A stretch of 42,726 nucleotides of DNA from Actinomycetota bacterium (GTDB taxonomy: Bacteria; Actinomycetota; Acidimicrobiia; Acidimicrobiales; Ilumatobacteraceae). The notes under the pieces are model-generated. The model had not been told where the DNA came from. It did no database searches and saw nothing but the letters and a program-made list of their open reading frames with translations. Where the stretch lies: assembly GCA_030685215.1 (NCBI GenBank), contig JAUXQB010000227.1, forward strand, positions 1 to 42,726, written 5' to 3'. This document shows positions 35,618 to 42,726 of the stretch, one piece after another. Both the position numbers and the translations under genes were made by a program. Within the stretch, counting starts at the first letter, position 1. Every line of letters begins with the position of its first letter.

Positions 35618-38209
35618 TCACCCGGGCCTGCCGGCCGTCGGCGTGTGCCGGCGACGGCGGTGCTGCTTGTGCAGCGCATCGGCGGCGAGCAGCGCGGGCG
35701 GCGTCAGCACGGCCACGAACAGGGCGGCCGCCGGGGGCGCCGTGTGTTCGAGCAGCTCGGCGATCGGCCCGACGAGCAGGAACCCGGCCAGCAGCACCAG
35801 CTCGATCGCGACGGCACCGAGCAGCAGCCGGTTGCTGGTCCAGCCGAGCGAACCCGGCCGCCGCGTGGCGCTGCGACACGCGAACGCGTTCGCGGCCTGC
35901 CCGATCACGACCGCCGCGAACGCAGCACCCGATGCAGCGAGCAGTGCGTGGCCCGTGGGGAAGCTGTCGCCGGGGCGCCAACCGGCGACGACCAGTGCGA
36001 CCACGAAGGCCGTCATCTCCATCACCGCCTCGGTGGGCCCGAGCACGCCGAACACGCGGCGCAGGAGGGCGCCGTCGATGAGGTGTCGACCACGCGGCGG
36101 CTGCTCCAGCGCACCCGGGTTCGGTGCCTCGGCGCCGAGCGCGAGTGCCGGCAGCAGGTCGGTGCCGATGTCGAGGCAGAGGATCTGCAGCACGCCGAGG
36201 GCCAGTGGGAAGCGGCCACCGGAGAGCGCCCACACTGCGAACGGAGTGAGCTCGGCGACGTTGTCGGTGAGGTGGTAGGTGAGGAACCGGTGCACGTTGG
36301 AGAATGTGGCTCGACCCTGCTCGATGGCGACCACGATGGTGGCGAAGTCGTCGTCGAGCAGGACGAGGTCGGCGGCTTCGCGAGCGACGTCGGTGCCCGA
36401 GCGACCCATCGCGATGCCGATGTCCGCGGCGCGCAGTGCCGGACCATCGTTCACGCCGTCGCCGGTCATGGCCACCACGTGCCCTCTCGCCTGGAGTGCG
36501 CGCGTGATGCGCAGCTTGTCCTCCGGCGCGACGCGGGCCACCACCACGCCCTCGCGATCGAGCAGCGCGCCGAGCACCTGCTCGTCGGCCGGCAGGTCCT
36601 TGCCTTCGACGACGAGCCCATGGTGATCCGACAGGCCGACCTCCGCCGCGATGGCTCGCGCGGTGGCCGGGTGGTCGCCGGTGATCATCGCCACTCGGAT
36701 CCCGGCGCGGCGGCAGGCGGCGATCGCATCGGCAGCACTCGCTCGCGGCGGGTCCTGCAGGCCGAGCAGCCCCAGCAGCTCGAGCTGCTGCTCTGCGACG
36801 TCGGCGTCGCACTCGCCGGAGAAGTCGGAGACCGGTCTGGTGGCCACTGCCAGCACGCGCAGGCCGCGACCGGCCATCTCCTCGATGACGGAGAGTGCGC
36901 CGTCGGTCACCACGCAGCGCGGCAGCACCGTGTCGGTGGCGCCCTTGACGAACAGCCGGTCACCGATCACGAGCGACATACGCCGGCGCCGCGGGTCGAA
37001 CGGGAACCGTCGCAGCACTGGGTGGCGGGCGTCGTCGTCGGCGGTGTCGATGCCGAGGCGGCGCGCGAACGTGTCGATGGCCGCCTCCATCGGATCGCCT
37101 TGGGCGACCCACAGGCCGTCGCGCTGCACTGCGCGGCCGGTGGAGCATCGGGCCGCCGCAAGGGCGAGGGCGCGCAGTGCGGGGCCGTCGAGCTCGGCGC
37201 CGGCGAGCGGCTCGGTGGGGTCGTAGCCGGTGGTGTCGAAGTGCGTCGTGCCGGACGAGGTCCACACCTCGACCACCGCCATCTCGTTGCGAGTGAGGGT
37301 GCCGGTCTTGTCGGTGCAGATGAACGTGGTCGAACCGAGCGTCTCCACCGACTCCAGCCGCCGCACGAGTGCGTGACGCCGTGCCATTCGCTGCGCGCCC
37401 ATGGCCAGCGACAGCGTCACGGTCGGGAGGAGTCCCTCCGGGACCAACGCGACGGTGACACCGATGGCGAACAGGAAGCCGTCGGAGGCGGGTGAACCGA
37501 TGGCCAGCGAGATGCCGAAGAACGCGAGGCCGACGCCGACCGCGATGAAGGCGACCGTGCGCACGACCCGGTCGATCTCGTGCGCAAGCGGGCTGCGCGG
37601 TCGCGTGCCCAACTGCGTGAGCTGCGCGATGCTCGCGAGCCGCGTCGACGCGCCGATCGCGGTGACCACGGCTCGGCCCTCACCCTCGACCACGAAGGTG
37701 CCCGCGGGCAACGTGTCGCCCCGCGACATCGGCACCGGGACGCTCTCGCCGGTGAGCATCGACGTGTCGACGACCAGCGCATGCGCCTCATCGATGACCA
37801 GGTCGGCCGACACCCGGTCGCCGGCATCGAGCAGCACCACGTCGCCGGCCACCATCTCCGACGCGTCGATCTCCACGGGCAGTCCGTCGCGCACCACGAT
37901 CGCCCGCCGGGGCAGCAGGTCGCGGAGGCGCTCGGCGGCGTGCTCGGCGCGGCTCTCCTGCACGTACGCGAAGACGCCGTTGACGATGACCACCACGAAG
38001 ATCGCGACACCCAGTTGCGCCATGTCGGCGATGAACGCCAGCACGCCGGCGACCCACAGCAACAGCGCGAAGAAGTGGGTCATCTGTGCGACGAGGTGAC
38101 GCCATGCGGCGGGTCGCTTGGTCGTGGGCAACCGATTCGGCCCGTCACGCGCCAACCGGGTGCGCGCCTCGGCGGTCGACAGACCCGGAGCAGCACTCGT
38201 CGTGGCCAC
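35618..38209 (-). CDS. P-type cation ATPase, Na,K-ATPase-like (P2C-like)
   Basis: 863 residues from GTG 38209 (GGTGGAG before it); a GTG at 38230 would add seven. TGES is at 153-156, phosphorylation loop CTDKTGT with Asp300, VKGA in the nucleotide domain (Lys422), TGD at 510-512, GDGVND at 583-588. Ion-site helices read PEGLLPTVTLSLAMGAQRMARR (M4, in parts at 257-275), DNVAELTPF (Asn650, Glu653) in M5 and ILCLDIGTDLLPAL (Asp680, Asp684) in M6. These match Na,K-ATPase alpha chains more closely than Ca pumps. The N-terminal cation ATPase domain and about four C-terminal helices complete the P2 layout. There is no beta subunit gene nearby. The ion moved is not proven. Confidence 0.9.
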   Translation of the reverse strand: MATTSAAPGLSTAEARTRLARDGPNRLPTTKRPAAWRHLVAQMTHFFALLLWVAGVLAFIADMAQLGVAIFVVVIVNGVFAYVQESRAEHAAERLRDLLPRRAIVVRDGLPVEIDASEMVAGDVVLLDAGDRVSADLVIDEAHALVVDTSMLTGESVPVPMSRGDTLPAGTFVVEGEGRAVVTAIGASTRLASIAQLTQLGTRPRSPLAHEIDRVVRTVAFIAVGVGLAFFGISLAIGSPASDGFLFAIGVTVALVPEGLLPTVTLSLAMGAQRMARRHALVRRLESVETLGSTTFICTDKTGTLTRNEMAVVEVWTSSGTTHFDTTGYDPTEPLAGAELDGPALRALALAAARCSTGRAVQRDGLWVAQGDPMEAAIDTFARRLGIDTADDDARHPVLRRFPFDPRRRRMSLVIGDRLFVKGATDTVLPRCVVTDGALSVIEEMAGRGLRVLAVATRPVSDFSGECDADVAEQQLELLGLLGLQDPPRASAADAIAACRRAGIRVAMITGDHPATARAIAAEVGLSDHHGLVVEGKDLPADEQVLGALLDREGVVVARVAPEDKLRITRALQARGHVVAMTGDGVNDGPALRAADIGIAMGRSGTDVAREAADLVLLDDDFATIVVAIEQGRATFSNVHRFLTYHLTDNVAELTPFAVWALSGGRFPLALGVLQILCLDIGTDLLPALALGAEAPNPGALEQPPRGRHLIDGALLRRVFGVLGPTEAVMEMTAFVVALVVAGWRPGDSFPTGHALLAASGAAFAAVVIGQAANAFACRSATRRPGSLGWTSNRLLLGAVAIELVLLAGFLLVGPIAELLEHTAPPAAALFVAVLTPPALLAADALHKQHRRRRHTPTAGRPG

Positions 38210-38264
38210 GGCTCCACCGTGACACCGCACGGGTGTGCGGGCTAGAGGATTCTGGCAGCGGCGT

Positions 38265-38585
38265 TCAGCCGCAGGTCACGCACGTGTCGGCATCTGGCAG
38301 GGCTTCGAGGCGCTCTGCCGGGATGTCGTCGCCGCACTTCGCGCAGCGGCCGTAGGTGCCCGACTCGATACGGACGATGGCCTGCTCGACGTCGCGCACG
38401 TGCCCGCGGGCCACTTCCACCAGCGTGCGGGTGGCATCGCGATCTTCCTGGATGACATCGGGGTCGGCGAGCAACTCGTCGTACTCGGTGCTCAGCCGAT
38501 CGAGCTCGGTGCGCGCCTGACCGAGCTCGTGCCGCAACCCGGTGGCCGATGTGGCGGGTGTCTCTGAGGAAGCTGCGCTGTCCAT
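38265..38585 (-). CDS. DksA/TraR-type zinc-finger protein
   Basis: 106 residues from ATG 38585 (ATG 38597 would add four). A long coiled-coil-like helix (LRHELGQARTELDRLSTEYDEL) and EVARGHVRDVEQAIVRIESGTYGRC precede a C4 zinc finger C-x2-C-x17-C-x2-C (Cys81, 84, 102, 105). IESGTYGRCAKCG and IPAERLEALP are hallmark TraR/DksA sequence. In actinobacteria such proteins include RNA polymerase-binding RbpA-unrelated regulators and simple TraR-like proteins. The acidic tip of the coiled coil typical of E. coli DksA cannot be confirmed. It stands between two other minus-strand genes with its own gap on both sides. Confidence 0.88.
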   Translation of the reverse strand: MDSAASSETPATSATGLRHELGQARTELDRLSTEYDELLADPDVIQEDRDATRTLVEVARGHVRDVEQAIVRIESGTYGRCAKCGDDIPAERLEALPDADTCVTCG

Positions 38586-38662: not shown

Positions 38663-39277
38663 TCAGAGGTCGATCTGCCCACGCAGCAACGATGCACCGG
38701 AATGCTTCGGGTCGCCGTCGTAGGGCTCGGTCGACACGTCGACGATGGGGTAGTCGGCGAGGCTGAGCCCCTGCGGGAACTCGTAGGTGCCGTCGGGGCG
38801 CACGGTGCCGAGCGACACCATGCCCGACACGTCGGCCTTGATCAGCCACACCTCGAGGAACTCGCCCGAGGCAGGGCGGGCGTCGCCGACGTCGACCCGG
38901 ATCACCTCGCCGGCGCTCGACTCCACCACGTCGGCCTGACCGCGCAGGCCGGGTGGTGCGCCGTCGAGGCCGTCGCTGGTGAGCTCGGTGGTCGCGAGCA
39001 CCACCTCGGCGTCGTCGCGCCACAGCAGGGCGGCGCCACCCACGCCGACGACCACGAGCGCGGCGGCCGCGCCCAGCCACCAACGACGTCGTGAAGTCGC
39101 CGCGGCAGGGTCTGGCCGCCGGGACTCAGTCGCGGAGACGGCCGCGTCGATCTTCGCCCACACCTCGGGTGGGGGAGCGACGAGATGCCCGTCGTCGGGT
39201 TGCAGATCGCGCAGAGCCGCCAGCATGTCGATCTCCTGATCGGTGTACGGGGAGGGGGAGTCGGTCGGGTCAGTCAT
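38663..39277 (-). CDS. RskA-type anti-sigma factor
   Basis: 204 residues from ATG 39277, eight bases inside the end of the sigma gene. A short cytoplasmic N-terminus (DQEIDMLAALRDLQPDDGH, PPPEVWAKIDAAV) that would bind the sigma factor, one membrane helix (WWLGAAAALVVVGVGGAALL), then an extracytoplasmic domain of RskA type (LRGQADVVES, FLEVWLIKADVSGMVSLG, DYPIVDVSTEPYDGDPKHSG, SLLRGQI). The end of that domain is the classic SxEP-xxGxPxxPSG-like motif. In mycobacteria RskA is cut by intramembrane proteolysis to free SigK. No zinc-finger motif is present. It is made together with the sigma factor. Confidence 0.85.
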   Translation of the reverse strand: MTDPTDSPSPYTDQEIDMLAALRDLQPDDGHLVAPPPEVWAKIDAAVSATESRRPDPAAATSRRRWWLGAAAALVVVGVGGAALLWRDDAEVVLATTELTSDGLDGAPPGLRGQADVVESSAGEVIRVDVGDARPASGEFLEVWLIKADVSGMVSLGTVRPDGTYEFPQGLSLADYPIVDVSTEPYDGDPKHSGASLLRGQIDL

Positions 39278-39842: not shown

Positions 39843-39849
39843 TGCACTT

Positions 39850-39883
39850 GTTCTTGGCGGTGAGTCCTCATGTTGGATGCAAC
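39850..39883 (-). promoter_or_regulatory. candidate SigK-type promoter of the sigma/anti-sigma operon
   Basis: On the minus strand GTTGCATCC (39883-39875), a 16-base spacer and GCCAAGAAC (39858-39850). The same -35 and nearly the same -10, with equal spacing, stand in front of the fasciclin gene on the other strand. The expected start of transcription falls at about the ATG 39842. Confidence 0.6.
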
Positions 39884-39920
39884 CCGCCTCGATTTCCACC
39901 CGTGCTCGAAGTCGAAAGTT

Positions 39921-39954
39921 GTTGCATCCGCGCGGGCCCGCCACCGCGAAGAAC
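39921..39954 (+). promoter_or_regulatory. candidate SigK-type promoter of the fasciclin gene
   Basis: GTTGCATCC (39921-39929), a 16-base spacer and GCGAAGAAC (39946-39954). This mirrors the minus-strand promoter; only the -10 differs by one base (GCGAAGAAC against GCCAAGAAC). Transcription would start near 39961, giving a leader of about 36 bases with a GAGGAGG ribosome site. Confidence 0.6.
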
Positions 39955-39996
39955 GGGGGACGAGTGATCCGCGCTCGTCACATCGAGGAGGCAACC

Positions 39997-41064: not shown

Positions 41065-41201
41065 GTGTGCTCCTGTCGTTCTGTGAGTCGCTCTGTGTGC
41101 GACAGCTCGTCCGCTGTCGCACGCATGCATGATCGGCCCCGCGGTTTGCAGTCGGCCTGCAGCCGCCGACGTCCGTGCGGGCCTGCAGTACCGTGCACGC
41201 C

Positions 41202-42726
41202 GTGGATCGCCTGTCCGTTCGGGTGGTGGGCGTCTTTCGGGTCGAGGGCCTCGACGAGCATGCACTCGGCAGCCGCAAGGCGCGCACCCTGCTACGGGTG
41301 CTCGCGTGCGAACGGGGTGGGGCGGTGTCGACCGATCGCCTCGCCGACGCGTTGTGGGGCGACGAGCTGCCGTCGAAGCCGTCCGACCAGGTGAGCGTGC
41401 TCGTCAGCCGGTTGCGCGCGGTGCTGGGCCCACGCATTCCACGCTCCGACGCCGGTTACTCGTTGCAGTACGACTGGCTGGATCTCGACGAGCTGCTCGC
41501 GCGCAGTCGCGAGGCGGTGGCTCGGCTGGGCACCGGTCATCACGCGGCTGCCCGAGTGGCGTCGGCGGCGGCGTTGCGGCTGGTGCAGGGGCCGGTGCTC
41601 GCCGATGACGATGCGCTGTGGGCCCAGGGTGTGCGCGCCGAGATCGAGCGGGCGGTGGCCGATGCGCGGCTGGCGGGAGCGCGCGCCGCACTCGAGGTGC
41701 GAGCGTTCGAGGAAGCGACGGAGCTGGGCACGGCCGCGATGGTGAGCGACCCGTTCGACGAGGTGGCGCTGCGCGTCGTGATGCGTGCGCACGCGCATCT
41801 CGGTCGACCGGGCTCCGCGCTCGCGGTGTACACGGCGTTCAAGGAGCGCATCGTCGACGAGTTCGGTGTCGGCCCGACGGCCGAGACGGAACAGGTGCAC
41901 GACGCCATCGTGCTCGGCTCGGGCCACGACAACGACGAGCACCCGGCGGCGACGCTGATCGTCGGTCGCGACGGCGAACTGGCGGCGCTCGATGCCTGGC
42001 TGGCAGCCGCGGCCAGCGCGTCGACGCTGGTCGTGGTGGAGGGGGACCCTGGTATCGGCAAGTCCGCCCTCGTCGGCGAGTGGCGCCAACGGGCGGAGCG
42101 CAGCGGTGCCCACGTGCTGTTCGCCCGCTGTGACCAGCCCGGGCTGAGCCTGCCGTTGCAGCCGATCATCGACGCCGTCACCGACTGGGTCGCTCGCGTG
42201 CTGGGGCCGGATCAGGCCGACCTGCTCGTCGGTGGCGACCCCGTCCTGGCAGCGGCGCTCGGCCGTCGCGGCGCGGTGAGACCGGTCGACGGCGTGCGTG
42301 CGCAGGACTCTGTCGAGGCGCCCGAACTGGGTCGACGTCGATTGTTCGACGCACTGGGCGTGCTCGTGGATCGCGTCCGTGGTGATGCTGCAGTGGTGGT
42401 GATCATCGACGACGTGCACGAGGCCGACGCCGGCACGTTGGCGTTCCTCGCGTCGTACGTCCGCACCGCGAGGAACGCAATGGTGCTGCTGACCTCGCGC
42501 GACCCGCTGACGGCCACCGTCGGCGGCAACCGGCTCGTGCTCGGACCGATCGAGCGTGACGCAGCAGCGCAACTGGTGAGCGACGATGCTGTGTCGCGCC
42601 TGTACGACCGCAGTGGCGGCAACCCACTGTTCCTGCTGGAGCTCGCGCACGTCGGCGACGGTGAGCTGCCGACGTCGATCGTCGAGGCCGTGCGACGCCG
42701 GAGCGCCACACTCGGGCCTGCCGCGT
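41202..42726 (+). CDS. AfsR-like regulator with BTAD and AAA ATPase (3' end outside window)
   Basis: 508 codons are visible from GTG 41202 and the frame stays open to the right edge. The N-terminus VVGVFRVEGLDEHALGSRKARTLLRVLA, STDRLADALWGDELPSKPSDQVSVLVSRLR is an OmpR-like winged helix of the SARP/AfsR type, followed by a bacterial transcriptional activator domain (about 95-240; HLGRPGSALAVYTAFKERIVDEFG). The ATPase begins with VGRDGELAAL, Walker A GDPGIGKS at 281-288 and Walker B VVVIIDDVHEAD near 398-409; SGGNPLFLLELA is a later AAA/STAND motif. Such large regulators activate secondary metabolism or stress genes. The C-terminal sensor part is not visible. It may also control the divergent cupin. 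Confidence 0.88.
   Translation, partial: MDRLSVRVVGVFRVEGLDEHALGSRKARTLLRVLACERGGAVSTDRLADALWGDELPSKPSDQVSVLVSRLRAVLGPRIPRSDAGYSLQYDWLDLDELLARSREAVARLGTGHHAAARVASAAALRLVQGPVLADDDALWAQGVRAEIERAVADARLAGARAALEVRAFEEATELGTAAMVSDPFDEVALRVVMRAHAHLGRPGSALAVYTAFKERIVDEFGVGPTAETEQVHDAIVLGSGHDNDEHPAATLIVGRDGELAALDAWLAAAASASTLVVVEGDPGIGKSALVGEWRQRAERSGAHVLFARCDQPGLSLPLQPIIDAVTDWVARVLGPDQADLLVGGDPVLAAALGRRGAVRPVDGVRAQDSVEAPELGRRRLFDALGVLVDRVRGDAAVVVIIDDVHEADAGTLAFLASYVRTARNAMVLLTSRDPLTATVGGNRLVLGPIERDAAAQLVSDDAVSRLYDRSGGNPLFLLELAHVGDGELPTSIVEAVRRRSATLGPAA

Follow-up and report, generated by a model that had tools for sequence, protein, structure and literature searches.

Two divergent putative promoters connect an ECF sigma–RskA-type operon with a secreted FAS1 gene in an acidimicrobial genome

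The 42,726-nt stretch of DNA analysed here (the window) contains a three-gene locus that we interpret, with a probability of roughly 0.87, as an autoregulated module of an ECF sigma factor and an RskA-type anti-sigma factor that would also drive a secreted FAS1 (fasciclin) protein by means of two divergent promoters. The features on which this interpretation is based are listed in Table 1. P0001 has the ECF architecture, with profile matches to sigma regions 2 and 4 only, and it is paired with an adjacent RskA_C membrane protein, P0002, whose gene overlaps that of the sigma factor by 8 nt; the pair can therefore be classed as an ECF sigma factor with an RskA-type anti-sigma factor. The helix 1 motif of AS19-1, in the form quoted in an excerpt of PMC7406223, was not seen by eye in P0002. 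For P0003, the FAS1 protein, visual inspection indicates a signal peptide; a lipobox is absent. Among 20 FAS1 proteins encoded behind a comparable site in relatives, 18 match a lipobox pattern, L156 can be read by eye as one more lipoprotein, and L088 is neither. The surroundings of the locus include genes for a P-type cation ATPase (35618–38230, minus strand), a DksA/TraR-type zinc-finger protein (38265–38585, minus strand) and a BTAD/AAA transcriptional regulator (41175–42725, plus strand). A search of viral contigs found no relative of the window sigma factor.

Table 1. Genes and candidate regulatory elements of the locus, in window coordinates
Feature	Position	Strand	Basis or remark
RskA-type membrane anti-sigma gene P0002, 204 aa, no cysteine	38663..39277	-	PF10099, 52.3 bits (cut-off 29.4)
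ECF sigma factor gene P0001, 190 aa	39270..39842	-	Sigma70_r2 + r4; TIGR02937
Sigma gene start codon	39840..39842	-	10 nt past -10 hexamer; predicted leaderless or nearly so
-10-type element GCCAAGAAC, sigma-ward promoter; hexamer GCCAAG at 39858-39853	39850..39858	-	16 bases past -35
-35-type element GTTGCATCC, sigma-ward promoter	39875..39883	-	Exact 9-mer; 16.0 bits with relatives' matrix
-35-type element GTTGCATCC, FAS1-ward promoter	39921..39929	+	Exact 9-mer; 23.6 bits with relatives' matrix
-10-type element GCGAAGAAC, FAS1-ward promoter; hexamer GCGAAG at 39946-39951	39946..39954	+	16 bases past -35
Predicted FAS1 transcription start	39959..39962	+	Inferred by the 7-10 nt rule from leaderless sigma sites
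Shine-Dalgarno-like GAGGAGG upstream of FAS1 start codon	39985..39991	+	Sequence
Secreted FAS1 (fasciclin) protein gene P0003, 212 aa	39997..40635	+	PF02469, 62.7 bits (cut-off 22)

The gap between the sigma and FAS1 genes contains two back-to-back sites of the form TTGCATCC-N16-GC[C/G]AAGAAC, at 39882–39850 on the minus strand and at 39922–39954 on the plus strand. An initial reading made from the sequence alone (the sequence-only reading) had proposed two half-promoters here, and inspection finds them exactly as described, with GTTGCATCC, 16 bases and then a -10 element on each strand. The 9-mer occurs as two exact copies in the 42.7 kb of the window, both in this gap, and the 9-base inverted repeat to which that reading had drawn attention is indeed the two -35 elements on opposite strands. 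A search of the genome's own assembly (4.3 Mb in 340 contigs, 92% complete) finds TTGCATCC-N16-GCNAAGAAC in exact form only twice, at the two window sites, and the next best match has 2 mismatches. The more permissive TGCATCC-N16-SCNWAG is likewise exact at these two sites only.

Looser forms of the sites are not enriched. With up to one mismatch allowed, the window code is rarer in the genome than its reversed pattern (31 matches versus 79), and within the window the form with 2 mismatches gives 6 matches where 6.8 are expected. The signal thus depends on the exact sites and on the comparison with relatives. Loose sites on two further contigs of the genome (C152 and C168) were set aside, neither being convincingly upstream of a gene. 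Taken by themselves, the counts for looser forms would suit a chance likeness of two GC-rich stretches, but the exact forms are confined to this gap within the assembly and the placement of sites in relatives, described below, is far from chance; on this sequence evidence we regard an accidental resemblance as already refuted.

For the comparison with relatives, a protein search of the family covered 200 genomes, including the genome of the window, and 29 of these gave a match at E 1e-20 or better. The ortholog set comprises the 20 relatives at E 1e-39 or better, with nine weaker family matches (L036–L044) left out by score; one of the nine, L036, has a FAS1-like gene nearby. A scan of named genomes contributed the best 80 of 187 loci. 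Seventeen of 100 relative loci were near-identical to others and were dropped, and 83 relatives were kept together with the window.

The pattern TGCATCC-N15-17-SCSWA has 46 matches in the 546,559 bases of the 83 non-redundant relatives, compared with a mean of 2.0 and a maximum of 14 for 200 permuted patterns. Of the 46, 42 lie no more than 420 nt upstream of a sigma (15), FAS1 (20) or DUF4397 (7) domain, in 39 loci. The sites are conserved in many relatives. A strict on-target site is absent from the other 44 of the 83 loci, and 68 of the 83 have no strict site directly upstream of the sigma gene; some loci are truncated. The first scan used an AAGAA-like -10 element that missed most relatives, and this element was loosened after the upstream regions had been read by eye, so that the data themselves guided which letters of the pattern were fixed. 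Tests of placement, of presence and absence and of start-codon position are less dependent on that choice. When a matrix was built from 34 relatives' sites, with the window excluded, the two window sites ranked first (23.6 bits) and second (16.0 bits) of all window positions, and the third-best position reached 7.8 bits. The base following TGCATCC, which the pattern leaves free, is A or G in all 34 relatives' sites and is A in one window site and G in the other.

The sites also track the sigma factor. TGCATCCR-N15-SCGWA occurs 51 times in 20 genomes bearing the window-type sigma, versus 17 times for the reversed pattern, and 15 times in 20 family genomes without it, versus 17 for the reversed pattern; the latter 20 genomes were hand-picked and eight of them carry a weaker, paralogous match. 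Sites are thus enriched only in genomes where the window-type sigma is present. Across the phylum, the TGCATCC form was found in 3 of 26 loci outside the named set, two of the three preceding a DUF4397 gene, so the window code is little tested beyond Acidimicrobiia.

Gene order around the sigma gene varies among the 83 relatives. FAS1 lies upstream and co-directional in 34 and divergent in 1, DUF4397 is divergent in 11 and neither was found within 700 nt upstream in 37, of which 8 have less than 900 nt of sequence; the finder for both domains was trained on these loci. The DUF4397 identity was confirmed by Pfam in both of the two proteins tested. No DUF4397 gene was found in the genome of the window. 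In all 13 divergent gaps (the window, one FAS1 and 11 DUF4397), the top-scoring site on either strand exceeds the shuffled 99% level of 9.8 (26 of 26 sites). That level comes from 520 plain base-shuffled gaps, the largest score of which, 23.5, exceeds most of the real ones, and 5 of the 26 sites belonged to the training set of the matrix. A mirror-image pair of promoters thus seems to be the norm for loci with a divergent output gene.

These gaps also bear on an alternative reading of the dyad GGATGCAAC...GTTGCATCC, as the operator of a dimeric regulator and not a pair of -35 elements. In a repeat search, the dyad grows to arms of 22 nt (39875–39896 and 39908–39929) that are 73% complementary and separated by 11 nt, which speaks for an operator. 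Each half, however, is followed at exactly 16 nt by its own -10 element, strict sites in co-directional loci have no mirror partner, and the core-to-core distance of the TGCATCC-type sites ranges from 33 to 251 nt across the 13 divergent gaps. We consider an operator very unlikely, and read the dyad as a pair of candidate promoters.

The nearest neighbours of the window in the sigma tree are L076 and L077 (support 85/68, not strong). Both have strong sites in both directions and carry DUF4397 where the window has FAS1. Judging from such loci, the secreted output gene, FAS1 or DUF4397, seems to be exchangeable. L076 and L077 also have a second sigma/anti-sigma pair about 2–4 kb past the sigma gene, beyond the divergent DUF4397 gene. 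In other families of the phylum, a profile trained here identifies DUF4397-like genes near such sigma genes (L220–L224, L228, L230, L233–L235, L238 and L240), and a window-code site lies upstream of these genes in L224 and L228.

An in-frame ATG or GTG lies 7–10 nt past the -10 hexamer in 10 of the 15 sigma-proximal sites of relatives and in none of the 27 FAS1 or DUF4397 sites, where the distance to the start codon peaks at 31–42 nt. In the window, the sigma start codon is 10 nt past the hexamer. A simple binomial based on local start-codon density gives P of about 3e-9 for this spacing, a value that is too small because the relatives are not independent. The leaderless sigma mRNA suggested in the sequence-only reading is accordingly consistent with the geometry of the window and of 10 of the 15 relatives with a sigma-proximal site. 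Relatives without such a site point in the same direction: 47 of 67 have TANNNT 5–8 nt upstream of an in-frame sigma start, compared with a mean of 1.0 and a maximum of 3 in a plain base-shuffled control, in which start codons were scrambled as well and the control count was thereby lowered. (The 67 are the testable ones of 68 sigma genes, one having been dropped for its short upstream sequence.) The presence of a TANNNT box instead of the site in these 47 relatives implies that autoregulation is not universal, and together with the spacing at the sigma sites it makes the sigma mRNA look leaderless whichever class of promoter is used. This is only moderately surprising, leaderless mRNAs being common in actinobacteria.

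The sigma-ward promoter of the window is off consensus. The third base of its -10 hexamer (GCCAAG) is C, where 34 of 34 relatives' sites have G; the search pattern allowed either base. Autoregulation may consequently be weak. The deviation suggests that it is weaker than expression of the output gene, an arrangement by which runaway feedback could be limited. It would also fit an account in which the FAS1-ward site works alone, its sigma-ward counterpart being a decayed copy, and the sigma gene is expressed from an unseen housekeeping promoter; so would the TANNNT boxes of the 47 relatives. Yet the window start codon retains the 10-nt spacing characteristic of relatives, no TANNNT box was seen by eye 5–8 nt before the window sigma ATG, and strong sites face in both directions at the sister loci L076 and L077. 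We judge a decayed copy to be unlikely and favor two functional promoters, of which the sigma-ward one may be the weaker.

Two related questions are (i) whether the window sigma factor is SigK, as the sequence-only reading had it, and (ii) whether the sites could belong to another sigma factor. On the first, the SigK label fails. P0001 scores 89.3 bits on the NCBIfam SigK model (NF007228), for which the curated cut-off is 226, and the genome has a separate SigK gene on contig C223 (237.6 bits on the same model) beside its own RskA_C gene. In a maximum-likelihood tree of 108 sigma factors, rooted at the midpoint, the window falls in a clade of 60 rows on a branch with support of 100/99, and 30 of 30 SigK rows lie outside it. 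Alignment to 4nqw as a test for the redox cysteines places a Cys183 equivalent in P0001 and an alanine at the Cys133 equivalent. The remainder of the claim, a SigK–RskA–FAS1 circuit, survives in its gene set (ECF sigma, RskA_C and FAS1), in its conservation and in promoters that behave as those of one sigma factor.

The promoter sequences separate in a similar way. The mycobacterial SigK consensus is CCATCC...CCGAAT. The likeness to this motif noted at the outset holds for the general CATCC...SCGAA type, but the window has TGCATCC rather than CCATCC and N16 rather than N15; its sites, GCATCC-N16-GCGAAG and GCATCC-N16-GCCAAG, do not match the SigK form CCATCC-N15-SCGAA[T/C]. This form is present in 9 of 30 sampled SigK loci, and no FAS1 gene was found in the flanks (up to 1.5 kb) of the 30. 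In the genome of the window, CCATCC-N15-SCGAAY has five sites versus none for the reversed pattern. One instance of CCATCC-N15-CCGAAC is found 45 nt upstream of a start codon of SigK on C223, and another 49 nt upstream of the ATG of a contig C55 gene for a FAS1 lipoprotein; AGGAGG precedes this ATG. With the SigK code at both of these genes, the genome appears to run two sigma–FAS1 circuits. The two codes are related: their spacing differs by one base, and the -35 element has G in one and C in the other. Five contigs of the genome bear FAS1 genes (C55, C17, C134, C100 and the window), and the window code is absent from the first four among its 31 matches with one mismatch or better. A CCATCC-type match on C100 was rejected for its wrong orientation.

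On the second question, the genome contains at least two further sigma/RskA_C pairs (on C223 and C26), and the relatedness of the two codes could allow another ECF sigma, for example the true SigK on C223, to read the window sites in place of the neighbouring sigma. Site enrichment nevertheless tracks the presence of the window-type sigma, and the C223 SigK gene and C55 FAS1 gene carry their own, different code. Recognition by another sigma factor is thus quite improbable, and the neighbouring sigma is the preferred reader. The third pair of the genome is located at C26:2088–3261, and its sigma factor groups in the tree with one weak family match beside the window clade, in a poorly supported join (87/30).

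The sequences themselves establish the sites, how they are conserved and placed among relatives, and the distance to the start codon; the mechanism that we propose goes beyond this. Holoenzyme containing the window sigma would read TGCATCC-N16-SCGWAG in both directions. Leftward, it would transcribe sigma-rskA, giving positive autoregulation, with an mRNA beginning at the ATG or within a few bases of it; rightward, it would transcribe the secreted FAS1 gene with a normal leader, of about 35–38 nt if the predicted start is correct, and a Shine-Dalgarno sequence. The membrane anti-sigma RskA would hold the sigma inactive until an envelope signal releases it, whereupon sigma, anti-sigma and FAS1 would increase together. 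The FAS1 protein may then act in adhesion or another envelope function.

The regulon of such sigma factors may be somewhat wider in other genomes. The surroundings of 30 of the 51 sites in sigma-bearing genomes were read, and of 10 of the 15 in genomes without the sigma. Besides sigma, FAS1 and DUF4397 genes, some sites precede genes for a polyketide-cyclase-like protein, an epimerase, an MpaB-type oxygenase and an FtsX-like permease. Going by the controls, each genome would contain roughly one site by chance, and any single case therefore counts for little. FtsX-like permease genes stand behind a window-code site in three Ilumatobacter-type genomes (L113, L117 and L118; by Pfam in L113, the others being alike by eye).

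A broader reading, which we find somewhat better than evenly balanced, is that a non-SigK ECF clade, widespread in Acidimicrobiia, uses TGCATCC-N16-SCGWAG as a code of its own for a FAS1 circuit; that this circuit is parallel to that of SigK, which in the same genome drives itself and a different FAS1 gene through CCATCC-N15-CCGAAC; that the clade's sigma mRNA tends to be leaderless under either promoter class; that FAS1 and DUF4397 are swapped across a two-way promoter; and that in Ilumatobacter-type genomes further genes, an FtsX-like permease among them, may belong to the regulon. If so, a testable promoter code and a minimal regulon become available for an ECF sigma clade whose hosts have almost no genetics. 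Two sister sigma/RskA systems with offset codes and a FAS1 gene each, in one genome, would form a natural case for the separation of ECF specificities. The data further suggest that leaderless translation of the sigma gene persists across changes of promoter class, and that the roles of FAS1 and of the uncharacterised DUF4397 proteins are interchangeable.

Among solved structures, the best sequence match of P0001 is 2q1z, RpoE–ChrR (ECF11) of Rhodobacter sphaeroides, and a fasciclin gene appears in the stress table within an extract of PMC7074977. ChrR, however, is zinc-dependent according to an excerpt of PMC7406223, whereas P0002 has no cysteine and carries RskA_C. Another comparison is with mycobacterial SigK–RskA (sigK-rskA, mpt70/mpt83), with which the window shares an ECF sigma and an RskA_C membrane anti-sigma, a secreted FAS1 target, the CATCC...SCGAA promoter type and, going by an extract of PMC10540498, a small regulon. 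In M. kansasii, an excerpt of PMC9861118 describes light-induced FAS1 genes with putative SigK sites. The window differs in that its sigma belongs to another clade and, of the redox pair, has no equivalent of Cys133, its code is TGCATCC-N16-SCGWA rather than the CCATCC-N15-SCGAA[T/C] of SigK loci, and its FAS1 gene is divergent from the sigma gene.

The sequence-only reading had argued for a circuit outside mycobacteria. This part is not new, a FAS1-sigK-rskA cassette beyond mycobacteria being already in print: in a portion of PMC7509140, the mpt83-sigK-rskA cassette with its SigK site is described as conserved even in Gram-negatives, and Veyrier 2008 is cited there for the cassette outside mycobacteria, including Yersinia. 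The general circuit being known, the window system is a variant of it. It resembles that cassette, including the 2008 form as conveyed in the same portion of PMC7509140, in its FAS1-sigma-rskA set and conserved sigma site, and 34 of 83 relatives have the co-directional order; it departs from it in being divergent with a site on each side, and DUF4397 replaces FAS1 in 11 relatives. What appears to be new here is the promoter code, the divergent layout and the exchange of FAS1 and DUF4397.
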